The notes under the pieces were generated by a model, which worked only from the letters and a program-made list of their open reading frames with translations, made no database searches and was not told the DNA's origin. Source: Propionibacteriaceae bacterium (GTDB lineage Bacteria; Actinomycetota; Actinomycetes; Propionibacteriales; Propionibacteriaceae). From it: a stretch of DNA of 64,000 nucleotides. Location of the stretch: NCBI GenBank assembly GCA_031262485.1, contig JAISHO010000049.1:49999-113998 (forward strand), given 5' to 3'. A program made the position numbers and the translations under genes. Of this stretch, positions 56,482 through 64,000 are shown piece after piece (positions within the stretch are counted from its first letter, which is position 1; the number at the start of each line of letters is the position of its first letter).

Positions 56482-57066
56482 TCAGGCAGCCGTGGAGTCG
56501 CTCGCCGCGCCTTCGGCGGGCGCGCTCTCAGCGGGTTCGGCGGCAGCGGCCGCCGTTCCATCGGCTTCCTCGGCGTCGGCCATCTCGGCTTGTTCGGCTA
56601 GCCAACCGTCGCCGATCTGCTGAGTGGCGGCGAGGATGTCGGCGAAGGAGTCGACCGCCGACTCCTCGAGCTTCGGCCCCAGGATGGGGATGTCGATCGT
56701 CAGCTGCGAGTCGTAGACGACCGTCGAGGCGGCATCGTCGCCGGTCAACGTCATCTCGCCTTCGAGGACCGTCTTCATCTTCTCGACGAGCACCTGGATG
56801 TGCCCGCGCCGTGATCCGTCGCCGGCCCAAGGCTCCCACGACGTCGTCTGTTTGATCTCCATCTCCTTGCCGACGATGCGCTTCATCTTGTCGGGGGAGG
56901 GGACGACGTTCCAGACGGTGAGGGTGTCGGAGCCCGGCTCGACCCGGTGCTCGATCGCCTCCATGTCGGCGGCCGCCCGGTCGGCGAACTCCTGAGAGAC
57001 GAGCATGTCGGCCACCCGCTGAGGCGAGGCGGCGAAAGTGAAGGTCGATTGAAGGCGTTGTGACAT
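56482..57066 (-). CDS. DUF2505 protein (START-like fold)
   Basis: A 194-aa protein of the DUF2505 family, related to the SRPBCC/START lipid-binding fold: MSQRLQSTFTFAASPQRVAD, then EAIEHRVEPGSDTLTVWNVV and WAGDGSRRGHIQVLVEKM. A long amphipathic helix (about 140-170) and an Ala/Glu-rich tail follow. Ligand unknown. ATG 57066 chosen: TATTCT lies 6 nt upstream. Confidence 0.75.
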   Translation of the reverse strand: MSQRLQSTFTFAASPQRVADMLVSQEFADRAAADMEAIEHRVEPGSDTLTVWNVVPSPDKMKRIVGKEMEIKQTTSWEPWAGDGSRRGHIQVLVEKMKTVLEGEMTLTGDDAASTVVYDSQLTIDIPILGPKLEESAVDSFADILAATQQIGDGWLAEQAEMADAEEADGTAAAAAEPAESAPAEGAASDSTAA

Positions 57067-57072
57067 GGGGCA

Positions 57073-57078
57073 AGAATA
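57073..57078 (-). promoter_or_regulatory. -10 box of the DUF2505 gene, leaderless geometry
   Basis: On the minus strand TATTCT, 6 nt, then ATG 57066. Confidence 0.5.
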
Positions 57079-57121
57079 CGGCATCGGCTCCGTCATCAGG
57101 CCCTCCACGCGCAGCGGGGGC

Positions 57122-57127
57122 TAGGAT
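57122..57127 (+). promoter_or_regulatory. -10 box of the hydrolase-murF-ddl cluster
   Basis: TAGGAT, predicting a transcript start near 57134 and a leader of about 35 nt that includes AAGGAG (57153-57158), 9 nt before GTG 57168. Confidence 0.45.
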
Positions 57128-57167
57128 GAGGTGTCCCCGTCGTCGACATGCCAAGGAGCGAGTGCCC

Positions 57168-57941
57168 GTGCACGCCACCATCGATGGTCTCACCGTCTCC
57201 TGGAGCGTCAAAGGTTCCGGTGACGATGTCGTCCTCCTGCACGGCTGGGGGGCGCGCGCCTCGCTCTTCGACGCGCTCGGCGACCTGCTGGCGACGCGCT
57301 ATCGGGTCACCGCCTTCGACTTCCCGGGTTTCGGCGACAGCGATGAGCCGCCCGAGCCGTGGAGCGTCGACGATTACACCGTCTTCACCCGCCACCTCTT
57401 CGCCCACCTCGGCATCACCCGGGCCAGCCTCATCGGTCACTCCTTCGGCGGACGCGTCATCATCAAACTGGCCGCCGACCCCGATCGCGGCTTCGAGCTT
57501 GATCGTCTCGTCCTCGTCGACAGCGCGGGCATCCCCCCCCAACGCTCCCTCGCCTACCAAGCCCGAGTCAAGGCCTACAAAGCCGGCCGTCGCGTCCTCA
57601 CCTCGAAACCGGTCAAGGCGATCGCCCCCGGCGCCGAAGAAGCGTTCCGGCGTGCCGCAGGATCAGCCGATTACGCCAGCGCCACCCCGATCATGCGCCA
57701 ATCGCTCGTCAAGGTCGTCAACGAGGATCTCACCCCCCTGCTCGAGCGCATCAGCCAGGAGACCCTCCTTGTCTGGGGCTCGAACGACACCGACACCCCG
57801 GTCAGCGACGGCGAGATCATGGAGGAGAAGATCCCCGATGCCGGCCTCGTCATCCTTCCTGGAGCGGGGCATTACTCCTTCCTCGACCAGGCCTATGCCT
57901 TCCACCGGGTCATCCGCTCCTACTTCGGCATCGAGGAGTGA
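57168..57941 (+). CDS. Alpha/beta hydrolase linked to murF and ddl
   Basis: A 257-aa alpha/beta hydrolase with oxyanion region LLHGWGAR (23-30), nucleophile elbow LIGHSFGGRV (Ser92), Asp in WGSNDTDTP (about 207-209) and His235 in GAGHYSFLD, so the triad appears complete. No signal peptide: likely cytoplasmic. The gene starts a run hydrolase-murF-ddl-PHP-trpS with short gaps. Its position suggests it acts on a precursor or side product of stem-peptide synthesis, for example an ester or amide; this is inference. Start chosen by the AAGGAG site. Confidence 0.8.
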   Translation: MHATIDGLTVSWSVKGSGDDVVLLHGWGARASLFDALGDLLATRYRVTAFDFPGFGDSDEPPEPWSVDDYTVFTRHLFAHLGITRASLIGHSFGGRVIIKLAADPDRGFELDRLVLVDSAGIPPQRSLAYQARVKAYKAGRRVLTSKPVKAIAPGAEEAFRRAAGSADYASATPIMRQSLVKVVNEDLTPLLERISQETLLVWGSNDTDTPVSDGEIMEEKIPDAGLVILPGAGHYSFLDQAYAFHRVIRSYFGIEE

Positions 57942-57989
57942 CCGCCCCATGGTCGTGACGATCTCTAACCGTGCGGGGAGGGCCGCCTC

Positions 57990-59543
57990 ATGTTGACCAC
58001 CGTGCTCACCATTCTCGGCATCGTCGCTGTCGTCGTCGCCGGATCGCGCGCCTTCCTCTACGCGATGCACATGTTCCAGCTCAACTCGTACCGCGAGACC
58101 GTCCACCTCGACTGGATGCGCTCGCACCCGCGCTCTTTCTGGTCGCAAACCCTCGTCGCGCTGCTCGTCATCGCGACCTTGCTGAGCCAAGCCAACGCTT
58201 GGCGGATCATCGCCATCGTCGTCCTCGTCGGCTGTTTCTTCCTCAACCGGCGCGCCAAGCACATCAAGAAACCGCTCGTGTTCACCGGGCGCGTCCAACG
58301 GATGATGGTGACGACGCTCGTCATCGCCGCCCTGCTCATCGGGCTCGCCTTCGTCACCCCGGGTCGCTTCACCTTCCCGATCATCTTGCTCGTCTACGTG
58401 CTCAGCTCCGTGCTGCCCGTCCTGGCCAATCTCATCAACCGGCCGGTCGAGGCCGGCATCCGCCGCCACTACATCCACGACGCGGTCAAGAAGCTCAAGG
58501 AGCACCCCAACCTCATCGTCATCGGCATCACCGGCAGCTACGGCAAGACTTCCGTCAAATACATGCTGACGACGCTGCTCAAAGCCAAGTACAACGTGCT
58601 CATGACCCCGGAGAGTTTCAACACCCCCATGGGCGTCGTCAAAACGATCCGTGAACAGTTGCGCAGCACCCACGAGATCTTCGTCTGCGAGATGGGCGCT
58701 TATCGCAAGGGTGAGATCAAGGAGATCTGCGACATCGTCAACCCGCGCCACGGCGTCATCACCGCGGTCGGCGAACAGCACCTCGAGACGTTCAAAACGA
58801 TCGACACGATCCGGGCCACGAAATACGAGCTGGCCGAGGCGGTCGCGGGGCGAGGGATCCTCTTCCTCAACGGCGACTCCCCCCAGATCCGCCAGCACCT
58901 GCCCACCCAGGAACGGCGCGTCTACGGCCTGAGCGAGGGTGTCGACGTGCGCTCCTTGGACATCTCCGTCAGCCGGGAGGGCACCCAATTCTCCCTCACC
59001 AGTCAGGGCAAACGCTATGACAAGCTGCAGACCTCGCTCATCGGCGAGCACAATGTCGTCAACCTGACCGGCGCCATCGCCGTCTGCGACGCGCTCGGCC
59101 TGACCGAGACGCAGATCCGTTCCCAACTGCGCAAGGTCCAGGGTGCGCCGCACCGGTTGCAACTGACTCAATCGCGCGGTTTGACGATCGTCGACGACTC
59201 CTACAATTCGAACCCGGCCGGCGCACGGGCCGCCTTGGCCACCCTCAAACTGTTCGACGACTACAAGATCTGCATCACCCCCGGCATGGTCGATCTCGGT
59301 TCCCAACAGGATGCCCTCAACGAGGAGTTCGGTCGCGAGATGGCCGACGTGTGCGATCGTGTCATCCTCGTCGGGCGACGCCAGACCGCCGCGATCGCCA
59401 AGGGATTGACCACCGCCGGATATAGCGACGCCGACGTCGACATCGTCGAGAGCTTCACCGAGGCGATGGCCCGAGCCCAAGCCGCCGCCGCCGGGCGACC
59501 CGCCGTCCTCCTGCTCGAGAACGACCTGCCCGACAACTACTGA
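57990..59543 (+). CDS. murF: MurF-type ligase with N-terminal membrane domain
   Basis: Mur ligases of the MurF class add D-Ala-D-Ala (or a related dipeptide) to the UDP-MurNAc-tripeptide. Residues 1-150 form about five hydrophobic helices, absent from ordinary MurF. The ATP-binding loop GITGSYGKTSVK is at 179-190, followed by EMGAYRKGEIKEI, GEQHLETFKTID and, in the C-terminal domain, VDDSYNSNPAGARAAL. The protein ends in LLLENDLPDNY. 517 aa. GGGGAGG lies 9 nt before ATG. The layout resembles Firmicutes MurF-like proteins that accompany a Ddl; a separate classical murF probably exists in the dcw cluster. Confidence 0.85.
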   Translation: MLTTVLTILGIVAVVVAGSRAFLYAMHMFQLNSYRETVHLDWMRSHPRSFWSQTLVALLVIATLLSQANAWRIIAIVVLVGCFFLNRRAKHIKKPLVFTGRVQRMMVTTLVIAALLIGLAFVTPGRFTFPIILLVYVLSSVLPVLANLINRPVEAGIRRHYIHDAVKKLKEHPNLIVIGITGSYGKTSVKYMLTTLLKAKYNVLMTPESFNTPMGVVKTIREQLRSTHEIFVCEMGAYRKGEIKEICDIVNPRHGVITAVGEQHLETFKTIDTIRATKYELAEAVAGRGILFLNGDSPQIRQHLPTQERRVYGLSEGVDVRSLDISVSREGTQFSLTSQGKRYDKLQTSLIGEHNVVNLTGAIAVCDALGLTETQIRSQLRKVQGAPHRLQLTQSRGLTIVDDSYNSNPAGARAALATLKLFDDYKICITPGMVDLGSQQDALNEEFGREMADVCDRVILVGRRQTAAIAKGLTTAGYSDADVDIVESFTEAMARAQAAAAGRPAVLLLENDLPDNY

Positions 59544-59590
59544 CGAATAGCCGGTTCCCGCAGATCGCCGGGAGAAGGATGAGGAGTGTC

Positions 59591-60820
59591 ATGAGAATCA
59601 CCGTCGCCGTCCTCTTCGGAGGCAAATCCGTCGAACACGAGGTGTCGGTCATCTCCGCCGTCCAAGCGATGCAGAACATCGACGAGGAGACCTACGAGAT
59701 CGTCCCCGTCTACCTCACCAAGGGCAATGAGATGTACACCGGCGCCGGGTTGCGCGAGATGGATTCGTACCGCGACATCCCCGCCCTCCTCAAAGGCTGC
59801 ACCCGCGTCGCCTTCGTCGTCGACGGGGACAAGACCTTCCTCATGCCGTCCCCGCCGCCGCGGTTGCACCGCCGGGGAGGAACGCTCATCGATGTCGCCT
59901 TCCCCATCGTCCACGGCACCAACGTCGAAGACGGGGCGCTCCAGGGGATGCTGCGCTGCCTCAACCTGCCCTTCGTCGGCCCCGACGTGCTGGCCGCCGC
60001 GTGCACCATGGACAAATTCGTCATGAAGACGATGCTCAAGCAGGGCGGTTTCCCCGTGCTCGACGGGCTGCGGTTCTCGATCGCCGAACAGGAGGACATC
60101 GACGCCATCCGCGCGGCCGTCGAGGGGGCGTTCTCCTACCCTGTCATCGTCAAACCCGTCAACCTCGGCTCCTCGGTCGGCATCGGCAAGGCCGACGACG
60201 CCGAAGGCCTCGAGACGTGCTTGCGCACCGCCTTCAGCTTCGCCCGCCACGTCCTCGTCGAGCCGGCCATCACCCATCTGCGTGAGATCAACTGCGCCGT
60301 CCTGGGCGACGCCGACGAGGCCGAGGCCTCCGAGTGCGAGGAACCCTTCATGACCGAGGAGATCCTCAGCTACGCCGATAAATACGAGGGCGGATCCGGC
60401 TCCGGCAAGGCGAAAGGCGCCAGTGACGGCCCTTCGGGAGGCAAGTCGGGCATGGCCGGGCTCAAGCGGCGCATCCCGGCCGAGATCACGGCGGAGACGC
60501 GCGATCACATCCGGCGCCTCGCTGTCGACGCCTTCCAATACCTCGATTGCGCCGGGGTGACCCGCGTCGACTTCCTCCAAGACACCTTGACCGGGGAGAT
60601 CTGGATCAACGAGCTCAACACCATTCCCGGATCGCTCGCCTTCTACCTCTTCGAACCGCTCGGCATCAGCTACACCGAGTTGCTCACCCGCCTCATCCAG
60701 TTGGCGCTCAAGCGCGCCCGCTTCGAGGAGGACATCGTCTATTCCTTCGACAGCAACATCCTCGCCTTGGCGGGAGGCGGCGCCAAGGGCGGTAAGGCCG
60801 GCGGGGGAGCGAAGCGATGA
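59591..60820 (+). CDS. ddl: D-alanine-D-alanine ligase family protein
   Basis: ATP-grasp ligase joining two D-amino/hydroxy acids for the stem terminus. 409 aa. FGGKSVEHEVSV contains Glu15; NLGSSVGIGK (191-200) has the serine loop; SYADKY (260-265) keeps the Lys-Tyr pair of D-Ala-D-Ala ligases; NELNTIPGSL (340-349) is the Mg site. A Gly/Ser/Lys-rich insertion follows directly at about 266-292, and the C-terminus is another Gly/Lys-rich tail. GAGGAG lies 5 nt before ATG 59591. It overlaps the next gene by ATGA. Substrate choice (Ala, Ser or lactate) cannot be settled by eye. Confidence 0.9.
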   Translation: MRITVAVLFGGKSVEHEVSVISAVQAMQNIDEETYEIVPVYLTKGNEMYTGAGLREMDSYRDIPALLKGCTRVAFVVDGDKTFLMPSPPPRLHRRGGTLIDVAFPIVHGTNVEDGALQGMLRCLNLPFVGPDVLAAACTMDKFVMKTMLKQGGFPVLDGLRFSIAEQEDIDAIRAAVEGAFSYPVIVKPVNLGSSVGIGKADDAEGLETCLRTAFSFARHVLVEPAITHLREINCAVLGDADEAEASECEEPFMTEEILSYADKYEGGSGSGKAKGASDGPSGGKSGMAGLKRRIPAEITAETRDHIRRLAVDAFQYLDCAGVTRVDFLQDTLTGEIWINELNTIPGSLAFYLFEPLGISYTELLTRLIQLALKRARFEEDIVYSFDSNILALAGGGAKGGKAGGGAKR

Positions 60821-61680
60821 GGATCGACCTGCACGTCCACTCCGCCATCTCCGACGGAACCGACACCATCCCTCACCTCATCGAGGCCGCCGAAGACGCC
60901 GGGCTGGGCGCTTTCGCCTTGTGCGACCACGACACCTTCGACGGGGTCGAGGAGGCCCAACGCCTAGGGGAGCGGGTGGGGATCGCCGTGCTCAACGGGG
61001 TCGAGATCAGTTCCCATGGCGATGTGGGCGACGACCAACGCCCCGTCCACGTGCTCGGCTACGGCTGCCACCACGACGATCTCGCTCTGGGCGCCATCCT
61101 CGCTCGGATCCGTGCCGGACGCAGCGGACGAGTCGAAGCCATCATCGACAAACTGGCCGACCTCGGGTTGCCGTTGACGGTCGAGGAGGTCCAAGCCCAA
61201 GCGGTTCGCGCCGCCTCCATCGGGCGCCCCCACATCGCCGACGCCATGGTCGCCCGGGGGTACGCCGCCAATCGGGACGAGGTCTTCGCCCGGTGGCTGT
61301 ACAACGGCGGCCCCGCCGATGTCACGCGCTACACGCCGACGGTTCCCGAAGTCCTCGACGCCATCCGCGCCGCCCACGGCGTCGCCGTCATCGCCCACCC
61401 CTGGAGCCGGGGGACCGACGCCGTCCTCACCCCCGACGTCATCGCCACCCTCGCCGCCGAACACGGCTTGGCCGGTGTGGAGGCCGATCACCTCGACCAT
61501 AGCGAGGCCCAACGCGCCGCCCTCAAAGAGCTGGCCGCCCGGCTCGGTCTGCTCGTCACCGGATCGAGCGACTACCATGGCTCGGGCAAACTCAATCATC
61601 CCCTGGGCGCCTGCCTCACGGCTGAGCCCGTCTACCGTGAGATCCTCGCCCGGATCGACGACCAAGGAGGGCACCGATGA
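60817..61680 (+). CDS. PHP-domain phosphoesterase (RNase AM/YciV-like)
   Basis: A 287-aa PHP metallo-phosphoesterase. Metal-binding motifs: RIDLHVHSAISDGT (residues 2-15), CDHDTFDGV (about 36-44), GVEISS, AHPWSRG and the C-terminal SSDYHGSGK. Characterised relatives are 5'-3' exoribonucleases or 3',5'-nucleoside bisphosphate phosphatases. It overlaps ddl and trpS by 4 bp each (ATGA), so it is translationally coupled to both; there is no obvious functional tie to cell wall synthesis. Confidence 0.88.
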   Translation: MRIDLHVHSAISDGTDTIPHLIEAAEDAGLGAFALCDHDTFDGVEEAQRLGERVGIAVLNGVEISSHGDVGDDQRPVHVLGYGCHHDDLALGAILARIRAGRSGRVEAIIDKLADLGLPLTVEEVQAQAVRAASIGRPHIADAMVARGYAANRDEVFARWLYNGGPADVTRYTPTVPEVLDAIRAAHGVAVIAHPWSRGTDAVLTPDVIATLAAEHGLAGVEADHLDHSEAQRAALKELAARLGLLVTGSSDYHGSGKLNHPLGACLTAEPVYREILARIDDQGGHR

Positions 61681-62840
61681 CACCGCCCACGCCGGCTTCC
61701 ACCACCGCCCCGGAGGCGGACGACACGCTCGCCTTCGACAGTGAGACCGGCGACGCCCTAGCCGCGTCGACCTCGCAGGCCTCGCTCGAGCGCACCCTTG
61801 CCCGCAGCCGTCAGATCGAAGCCGAGATCGCCGTCGATCCCTCGAAATACCGCATCATGACCGGCGACCGGCCGACCGGCAACCTCCACATCGGCCACTA
61901 TTTCGGCTCCCTCCTCAACCGGGTGCGCCTGCAAGACGCCGGGGTCGAGACGATCGTGCTCATCGCCGACTACCAGGTCATCACCGACCGGGACGGCGTC
62001 GGGCCGATCAAAGAGCGCGTCTACTCGATGGTGGCCGATTACCTCGCCGCCGGGATCGATCCGAGCCGTTCCGTCATCTACCCGCACTCGGCCGTGCCCG
62101 CCCTCAACCAGCTCATGTTGCCCTTCCTCTCGCTCGTCACCGATTCCGAGTTGCGCCGCAACCCGACGGTCAAAGCCGAACTGGAGGCGACGGGCAACCG
62201 GCCGATGACGGGTCTTCTGTTGACCTACCCGGTGCACCAGGCCGCCGACATCCTCTTCTGCAAGGCCAACCTCGTGCCCGTCGGCAAGGATCAACTGCCC
62301 CACCTCGAGCAGACCCGGGTCATCGCCCGGCGTTTCGACGAGCGGTACGGCCGGGTCGATCCGGACCATCCCGTCTTCCCCCAGGCCGACGCCCTCCTCA
62401 GCGAGGGCGGGGTGACGATCCTCGGCACCGACGGGGTGAAGATGTCGAAGTCGCGTCACAACACGATCGAGTTGGGGATGGACGCCGACACCACCGCCGC
62501 GATCATCAAGAAGGCGGTCACCGATTCCGACCGCCACATCACCTACGATCCGGTCAATCGTCCGGCCGTCTCCAACCTCGTCTATCTCGCCGCCGTCAGC
62601 CTCGACCGGGATCCGGTCGAGGTGGCCGAGGAGATCGGCGACGGCGGAGCCGGCCAGCTCAAACGGCTCGTCACCGAGGCGGTCAACGAGCGTTTCGCCG
62701 CGCACCGGGCCCGTCGGGCCGAGTTGTTGGCTGACCCGGGGTATCTCCACACGGTGTTGGCCGAAGGCGCGCAGAAGGCGAACGTGTTCGCCGACGCCAC
62801 CCTCGACGAGGTCCGCCAAGCGATGAACATGGTGTACTGA
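61677..62840 (+). CDS. trpS: Tryptophanyl-tRNA synthetase
   Basis: Charges tRNA-Trp. 387 aa, with an unusual N-terminal extension of about 55 residues (Thr/Ala/Glu-rich). The class I signatures are TGDRPTGNLHIGHYFGSL (HIGH as HIGH) and KMSKSRHN. The wording TGDRPTG-LHIGHYFGSL and ADYQVITDRD is that of the second bacterial TrpRS branch common in Firmicutes and Bacteroidetes, not the SGIQPTG..LGNYLGA wording of standard actinobacterial TrpS. Start ATG overlaps the PHP gene by ATGA. Confidence 0.9.
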   Translation: MTPPTPASTTAPEADDTLAFDSETGDALAASTSQASLERTLARSRQIEAEIAVDPSKYRIMTGDRPTGNLHIGHYFGSLLNRVRLQDAGVETIVLIADYQVITDRDGVGPIKERVYSMVADYLAAGIDPSRSVIYPHSAVPALNQLMLPFLSLVTDSELRRNPTVKAELEATGNRPMTGLLLTYPVHQAADILFCKANLVPVGKDQLPHLEQTRVIARRFDERYGRVDPDHPVFPQADALLSEGGVTILGTDGVKMSKSRHNTIELGMDADTTAAIIKKAVTDSDRHITYDPVNRPAVSNLVYLAAVSLDRDPVEVAEEIGDGGAGQLKRLVTEAVNERFAAHRARRAELLADPGYLHTVLAEGAQKANVFADATLDEVRQAMNMVY

Positions 62841-62854
62841 GGCCGCTTCGGCGC

Positions 62855-64000
62855 TCAGCCGTAAAAAGCGTCTTTCCAGCGTTGCCCGGTGAGGCGGCGC
62901 CAGGCCTGCGAGGTCGGGATGTCGTGGCCGGTGGCGGCGTAGTAGAGCGTCGAATCGTCGTAGAGGACCTCCGTCTGCTCGTCAAAGGCCTCCGGGGAGC
63001 CGAGCATGACGATCTCGTCGCCGGGGCGAAGAAAGATCGTGTCGGCGGGAAATTCCGTCACCTTGCCCCCACGGATGAGCAGGAGCGGCAGACCGGCGAT
63101 CGGTTCGGCGGCGTTGAGCGGGGAGCGGAAGAGGGTTCCCAACTCGAGGCGGCGGTGGCCGAGCCAACGATGGACCGACGGGGTCTGCTGAGCCGAGATC
63201 GTGATGACATCGGTCCGCGGCGTCTCGGTGCCGACCCGAGCGACGATCCGTTCGGTGGCGCGGGCCGCCCATTCGTCGGACTCCTCCATGACCGTCTCGA
63301 AGAAACCCCACAGGCGCGGCGAGATGAGGTTGGTGAGGACGCGTTGGACGACGAGCCGGGGCGGGAAGAAGATCGAATCCGGTTTGAAGGCGTCGAGCAG
63401 GGGCAGGTGGACGTGCGATTGCTGGCGCACCGCGAGATAGATGTCGGGCTTGCGGGAGCGGATGTGGGCGGCCAAAGCGAGATTCGTCGTGTCCGACTCG
63501 GCGCCGGCCACGACCCCGCTGATGGCGTCGAGATCGAACTCTTCCCCGGGGAAGGCCTGGATCACCTTCTGGCCGGCTTGGGCGAGATCGCTGGCGATCT
63601 CGTGGCCGAACTGGCCGTCGGCGACGATGAGCCAGGTCCGCGTCGACAGGGGCGCCGGCAGGGGCGGCAGTTCCATCTCGACATCGGAGCTGAGCCAGGT
63701 CAGCAGCCGGAACGAATGGGGTTTCTCCAGGGCGAGAAGGAGGAATTCGCCGTAGTCGTCGAAGGGGTTGATGATGGCGGTCGGTTTGAAGTCGGCCATC
63801 GATTGGCTCGTCCGTCGGGTCGAGGCCCGGGCCACCACGGGAACGTCGGGACGCAACAGACTACACGTCATGACGATCTGAAGGTTCGTCTCGTCGTCGC
63901 CGGTCAGGGCTATGACCATGTCCATGTCGCCCATGTTTTCGCCGCGCATGAAGTCGCGATCGGTGCCGTCGCCGCGGAGGACCATGACGTTGACAAGCTG
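62855..64000 (-). CDS. TrkA-N/RCK ion-channel-like protein, 5' end outside the window
   Basis: The frame stays open to the window edge (codons for QLVNV precede ATG 63985), so the N-terminus, probably with membrane helices, is missing. Visible: a first RCK/TrkA-N Rossmann domain ending RGDGTDRDFM ... DMVIALTGDDETN, then a second one with TWLIVADGQFGHEIASDLAQAG. A C-terminal TrkA-C-like part has FLRPGDEIVMLGSPEAFDE. The layout resembles CASTOR/POLLUX-type potassium or calcium-activated channels. Convergent with trpS. Confidence 0.75.
   Translation of the reverse strand, partial: QLVNVMVLRGDGTDRDFMRGENMGDMDMVIALTGDDETNLQIVMTCSLLRPDVPVVARASTRRTSQSMADFKPTAIINPFDDYGEFLLLALEKPHSFRLLTWLSSDVEMELPPLPAPLSTRTWLIVADGQFGHEIASDLAQAGQKVIQAFPGEEFDLDAISGVVAGAESDTTNLALAAHIRSRKPDIYLAVRQQSHVHLPLLDAFKPDSIFFPPRLVVQRVLTNLISPRLWGFFETVMEESDEWAARATERIVARVGTETPRTDVITISAQQTPSVHRWLGHRRLELGTLFRSPLNAAEPIAGLPLLLIRGGKVTEFPADTIFLRPGDEIVMLGSPEAFDEQTEVLYDDSTLYYAATGHDIPTSQAWRRLTGQRWKDAFYG

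Follow-up and report, generated by a model that had tools for sequence, protein, structure and literature searches.

The DNA analyzed here, a 64,000-nucleotide stretch from a Propionibacteriaceae bacterium (assembly GCA_031262485.1, contig JAISHO010000049.1, positions 49,999 to 113,998; hereafter the window), forms the end of contig C5; the genome comprises 49 contigs, totals 2.84 Mb and is 95.24% complete. Five genes lie there in a single direction, as an earlier note on this DNA had described. The first three of them, which encode an alpha/beta-hydrolase, a MurF-like ligase with a predicted membrane domain, and a ligase of the D-alanine–D-alanine (D-Ala-D-Ala) type (Ddl), form the cassette that is our subject. 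The features are as follows.

57162..57941, plus strand: alpha/beta-hydrolase gene (259 amino acids; GTG start, the same frame also being opened by GTG at 57060)
57990..59543, plus strand: membrane MurF-like ligase gene (517 amino acids), without the uridine diphosphate (UDP)-binding N-terminal domain
57990..58505, plus strand: predicted five-helix membrane domain plus the helix into the core, residues 1-172 (hydropathy, model and conservation)
59591..60820, plus strand: Ddl gene, D-Ala-D-Ala ligase type (frame also opened by ATG at 59579)
60617..60649, plus strand: second-substrate loop of Ddl, NTIPGS... (alignment)
60817..61680, plus strand: PHP gene
61677..62840, plus strand: TrpS gene

The ATGA overlaps that join Ddl to PHP and PHP to TrpS, by which the earlier note had coupled the last three genes, are both present. 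The single −10 box that it placed ahead of all five was not recovered, a two-hexamer scan of positions 56900-63100 having given no promoter; a lone TAGGAT within 53 bases 5′ of the hydrolase start may be the element it had in mind.

The MurF-like protein matched the Pfam families Mur_ligase_M (PF08245, 136.6 bits) and Mur_ligase_C (PF02875, 58.5 bits), and the UDP-binding Mur_ligase domain (PF01225) was not found in it at E 0.001. In contrast, the canonical MurF of the sister genome G006 carries PF01225 (35.4 bits, cut-off 21). The best-scoring Mur model was nevertheless that of MurF itself (TIGR01143), which gave 226.4 bits, under its cut-off of 288.6, in a match starting at model position 68, and the closest solved structures were likewise those of MurF (Foldseek rows 1-10 and VIA-align rows 1-8). 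The databases already list homologues, as MurF or as a Mur ligase family protein; the sequence family itself is therefore known. By hydropathy, hydrophobic runs span residues 1-151, with a peak 19-residue value of 2.47, whereas the canonical G006 protein never rises over 1.39 on the same scale. An AlphaFold2 model built with 60 sequences (mean predicted local distance difference test score, pLDDT, 92.8) places helices at residues 2-31, 36-45, 47-65, 69-85, 100-122, 125-140 and 142-170, before the Mur core; a single-sequence fold was poor (pLDDT 42.5) and was not used. Hydropathy and model agree on the approximately 150 residues of membrane helices that the earlier note had predicted ahead of the ligase domain, and the UDP-binding domain is, by these predictions, replaced by a five-helix membrane domain. 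If there are five spans and the ligase is cytosolic, the N-terminus would lie outside and residues 25-46, 86-104 and 146-154 inside. The membrane part alone found zero PDB sequences at E 0.001 (best 0.38), and its matches to Pfam were all under cut-off. In an alignment of 85 rows, made up of 60 kin of the window protein and 25 distant actinobacterial sequences, Gln30, Tyr34, Thr99 and Arg101 of the membrane domain are invariant, Arg104 is kept in 81 rows and Pro152 in 84. His27, Lys93, Lys94 and Asn150 are invariant in the first 60 rows and variable among the 25 distant ones.

Six Mur_ligase_M genes are present in this genome, namely those for the membrane MurF, MurE, MurD, MurT, MurC and FolC, and no other MurF was found in it at its completeness of 95.24%. 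Among 19 genomes of the genus, 12 have the membrane MurF (10 whole, 2 as contig-edge pieces) and the other seven have a canonical MurF over cut-off; both types together occur in none. Several of the 12 cassette genomes, all without canonical MurF, are 96-99% complete. A canonical MurF over cut-off was also present in each of the 14 other genera of the family that were sampled (one genome each). The cassette Ddl occurs, besides this genome, in 11 cassette genomes (54-68% identity, one as a piece), whereas five canonical-MurF genomes have a different Ddl (32-38%), genome G014 has a piece (36%), and G009, which is only 79% complete, has a weak match only. Both tree and identity group the window Ddl with the Ddl of the other cassette genomes. 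MurF and Ddl thus share the same genome split across the genus, in keeping with the earlier note's view of them as a set.

The division and cell wall (dcw) cluster reads ftsI-murE-murF-mraY in six canonical genomes; in this genome and seven other cassette genomes murE and murF are missing, and mraY comes immediately after ftsI. (The dcw genes were typed in this genome, and murE and murF in G006; ftsI was assigned by penicillin-binding-protein models and place. Of the other four cassette genomes, three have contigs that break off within dcw, and for one this region was not retrieved.) The insertion site is empty in G006, which has the order secA-DUF6912-DUF2505-PHP-trpS-TrkA with 238 bases between DUF2505 and PHP, the gap that the cassette occupies in the window. 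The hydrolase adjoins DUF2505 in 10 of the 11 other cassette genomes, the contig of the eleventh ending before it. Displacement of the dcw murF and of another ddl by the cassette within the genus is well supported. The second route beside a housekeeping one that the earlier note had proposed therefore gives way, since this is the only MurF found in the genome and murF is gone from dcw. The same note's fallback, a single housekeeping murF and ddl inherited vertically in the family, is right about the sole murF and founders on a second Ddl on contig C34 and on the 14 canonical genera.

Transfer of all five genes as one block was ruled out, as PHP and trpS are adjacent without the cassette in G006 and neither was matched in any of 80 clostridial loci (below). 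The transferred block is the three genes for the alpha/beta-hydrolase, membrane MurF and Ddl, whereas PHP and trpS were in place before it. As the earlier note had suggested, the set resembles Firmicutes genes and is alien to this family, but it arrived without PHP and TrpS. The PHP-trpS pair lies elsewhere in the four other cassette genomes with the trpS region fetched, and TrpS is present in all 19 genomes of the genus, 69-78% identical to the window protein. PHP and trpS are adjacent in every genus genome for which one stretch covering both was obtained, the exception being G012, which has no PHP match beside trpS. A foreign contaminating contig was also ruled out by flanks in genus order and by matching G+C content at third codon positions (0.85-0.90 in the cassette genes, 0.85 in secA and 0.89 in trpS). 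A PADLOC search with four proteins gave zero matches to defence systems.

In a species tree built from six further proteins and rooted only by midpoint, a supported branch (100/100) separates the 12 cassette genomes and G014 from the rest, and within that group another (100/100) parts this genome from the remaining 12. In the MurF tree the MurF of genus relative G001 lies at zero distance from a database protein labelled Propionibacteriaceae (P0039), which is the ground for placing the genus in that family. MurF trees place the window MurF apart from the nine other MurFs of the genus, as would be expected if this genome had acquired its cassette separately. A single genus MurF clade, however, was not rejected (approximately unbiased test, p-AU 0.067), the Ddl tree (97%) and, with weak support (41%), the hydrolase tree each give one genus side, and the insertion site is shared; we consider one gain in the genus followed by fast divergence to be the likelier history. 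The Ddl match is interrupted by one stop codon in each of G015, G004 and G002 (loci L165, L166 and L169), and the MurF match by six in G279 (L329); these are decayed copies, assembly errors, or matches that run past the true end.

The cassette Ddl has both the N and C parts defined by Pfam and scores over the cut-offs of NF002528 (285.3 bits, cut-off 262) and TIGR01205 (248.1 bits, cut-off 245.65), whereas the NCBIfam Van models all fall far below theirs (VanG 198.7 against 495, VanD 155.4 against 700 and VanA 148.2 against 775 bits). The Lys-Tyr pair that marks D-Ala-D-Ala ligases, which the earlier note had read in this protein, is kept together with the ATP-grasp residues in the window Ddl and in all 98 aligned relatives. 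Relative to the sister-genome Ddl and to three aligned DdlA chains, the loop that follows NTxPG lacks four residues; this shortening is seen in 94 of the 98 relatives, two others having no letters there and two lying outside the printed list. A second Ddl of this genome (L020:5901-8280, contig C34), over the cut-off of NF002378, overlaps the end of an aminotransferase related to MocR-type proteins, and a second, unlike Ddl is a weak match elsewhere in 17 of the 19 genus genomes, this one included.

The same gene order, for which the earlier note had advised a search, was found in Clostridia and in distant Actinomycetota. From a scan of named genomes we analyzed the best 80 loci of 361 MurF relatives, which are nearly all from Clostridia or other Bacillota and 41-55% identical. 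The hydrolase is upstream of MurF in 79 of these 80, the remaining one being cut by the contig, and a Ddl match is downstream in 72, with five of the misses ending within 0.9 kb of MurF. Canonical MurF was not over cut-off in 22 of 24 clostridial carriers, genomes of unstated completeness that we chose from the 80 and searched. Five clostridial dcw loci read ftsI-murE-mraY with no murF match, and in two carriers of both kinds murF follows murE. Among 396 sampled Actinomycetota there were 46 matches at E 1e-60, which we divided by match start into 29 of the membrane type (this genome included) and 17 canonical cores. In the loci read for 25 of the 28 others of the membrane type, the hydrolase is present in all 25 and Ddl in 21, three of the four misses being contig-end cuts, whereas neither gene was present at four canonical loci; none of 26 actinobacterial carriers searched has a canonical MurF over cut-off. 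Because the order is the same in Clostridia and distant Actinomycetota, the arrangement is old and common to two phyla, and the cassette was likely transferred, its relatives being clostridial. As to the hydrolase (Pfam Abhydrolase_6, 91.9 bits), Ser94 and His237 are invariant and Asp209 is kept in 98% of 113 relatives, and conservation of this Ser-Asp-His triad indicates that the enzyme is probably active. Its constant presence beside MurF in both phyla indicates that it belongs to the MurF-Ddl set, where the earlier note had placed it.

The textbook order of steps leads to UDP-MurNAc-pentapeptide and is usually taken as general. We consider, with a probability of about 0.5, that the cassette is the only MurF-type route found here and that it attaches D-Ala-D-Ala at the membrane, the acceptor likely being a lipid-linked tripeptide. 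Ddl would make the D-Ala-D-Ala dipeptide and MraY would first move MurNAc-tripeptide to undecaprenyl phosphate; the membrane-held ligase core would then join the dipeptide to the stem, the invariant membrane-domain residues predicted to face the cytosol holding the sugar-pyrophosphate head that is otherwise held via UDP. That the displacement is seen in several lineages suggests a working MurF-Ddl set, and we infer a lipid-linked acceptor from the missing UDP-holding domain, the precedent of MurT (below), and the predicted membrane domain with its invariant residues. What the hydrolase would do is a guess, namely clear a mis-made or ester-linked intermediate. Staphylococcus aureus short of MurF is reported to incorporate tripeptide into its cell wall (PMC9603463), which indicates that in this species the later steps accept a tripeptide.

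Several observations weigh against this interpretation. The TIGR01143 score is under cut-off, and the variation of His27, Lys93, Lys94 and Asn150 in the distant rows means that the full basic cluster is not general. In three of the 80 clostridial loci the sequence downstream of MurF runs for at least 5 kb with no Ddl, in one actinobacterial locus it does so for 1.5 kb, and two of the 24 clostridial carriers also have a canonical MurF. Finally, G014, inside the cassette clade, has no cassette MurF and instead has a canonical-type MurF and Ddl. These two genes adjoin on a 7.5 kb contig (L229:1502-3937, contig C300), apart from the dcw genes seen. In composition this contig resembles the other contigs of G014 (tetranucleotide correlation 0.93 and 0.89); G014 may represent a second paired swap or a binning error.

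The evidence for displacement is equally compatible with a ligase that still uses soluble UDP-MurNAc-tripeptide and whose membrane domain is a scaffold that only places it near MraY and MurG, both of which are present and ordinary by their models. This account is a credible contender that we nonetheless hold to be somewhat doubtful, because the UDP-holding MurF domain is missing and because four membrane-domain residues invariant over 85 rows and two phyla are more than a plain anchor needs. We regard it as improbable that the stem ends differently, with the shortened-loop Ddl joining D-Ala to a partner other than D-Ala and MurF adding the product: the four-residue difference from DdlA and the sister Ddl and the joint movement of MurF and Ddl would fit, but all 98 relatives retain the Lys-Tyr pair and the remaining ATP-grasp residues, and it is the D-Ala-D-Ala ligase models, not those of Van enzymes, that pass their cut-offs. 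Least probable is an extra MurF-Ddl pair for resistance or proofreading, with the housekeeping murF hidden in the missing 5% of the genome. Incomplete assembly and the two clostridial genomes with both kinds of MurF speak for such a pair, but none of the 12 cassette genomes in the genus has a canonical MurF, and all eight with a readable dcw junction show it closed; nothing ties the set to resistance to D-Ala-D-Ala-binding antibiotics, a link that the earlier note had drawn.

Compared with known systems, the window ligase shares with MurF the middle and C-terminal Mur ligase domains, the best structural match, a Ddl partner and the genomic role for which it stands in. It differs from MurF in lacking the UDP-binding N-terminal domain, in its predicted membrane domain, in its TIGR01143 score, and in its place outside dcw beside a hydrolase. 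MurT, whose substrate is lipid II, likewise lacks the UDP-binding domain, which by its authors' argument would clash with the membrane (PMC6113224). Unlike the window ligase, MurT has no membrane domain reported in the available part of that work and amidates D-Glu with GatD (PMC6113224); the window ligase scores only 36.2 and 29 bits with the NCBIfam MurT models (cut-off 800), and this genome has separate MurT and GatD genes of its own. In Actinobacteria, murF-like genes beside vanHAX clusters also pair a MurF-like gene with a ligase of the Ddl superfamily (PMC8698665). Those genes sit with van genes, whereas the cassette neighbours that were typed show no van gene and the housekeeping murF is missing. 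Literature searches limited to open-licence PubMed Central found no description of a membrane or N-terminally truncated MurF and no described role in wall synthesis for a cassette-type hydrolase; nor did the membrane architecture, hydrolase partner, displacement or change of step order appear in print, including the available portions of PMC11915815 and PMC11707648.

Other wall genes of the genus vary as well. MurE is encoded away from dcw in the cassette genomes and is of several kinds (here L018:7481-9532, contig C35:52480-54531; elsewhere loci L262-L269). In the place of its DNPR motif, the nine read have EDPG (here), ASPR (five), DDPN (one) and DNPR (two), while all six canonical genomes read have DNPR; the third stem residue may thus differ between species of the genus. 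A change of third stem residue as the cause of the MurF swap was ruled out, as the off-dcw MurE kinds and motifs differ and none is tied to it. This bacterium likely amidates lipid II, judging by a MurT-like and a GatD-like gene that overlap head to tail (L019:5769-8263, contig C35).

A wide range of bacteria appears to have exchanged the final cytosolic ligase of this pathway for one embedded in the membrane, together with a Ddl and a hydrolase. We suggest tentatively, at somewhat less than even odds, that in much of the Clostridia and in several actinobacterial lineages MraY may act first and the membrane MurF, Ddl and hydrolase later, such that no UDP-MurNAc-pentapeptide would be made. The matter is relevant to drug work on soluble MurF and to how nucleotide precursor pools are interpreted in gut Clostridia, and a single genus that has both states at one known site makes a direct comparison possible.
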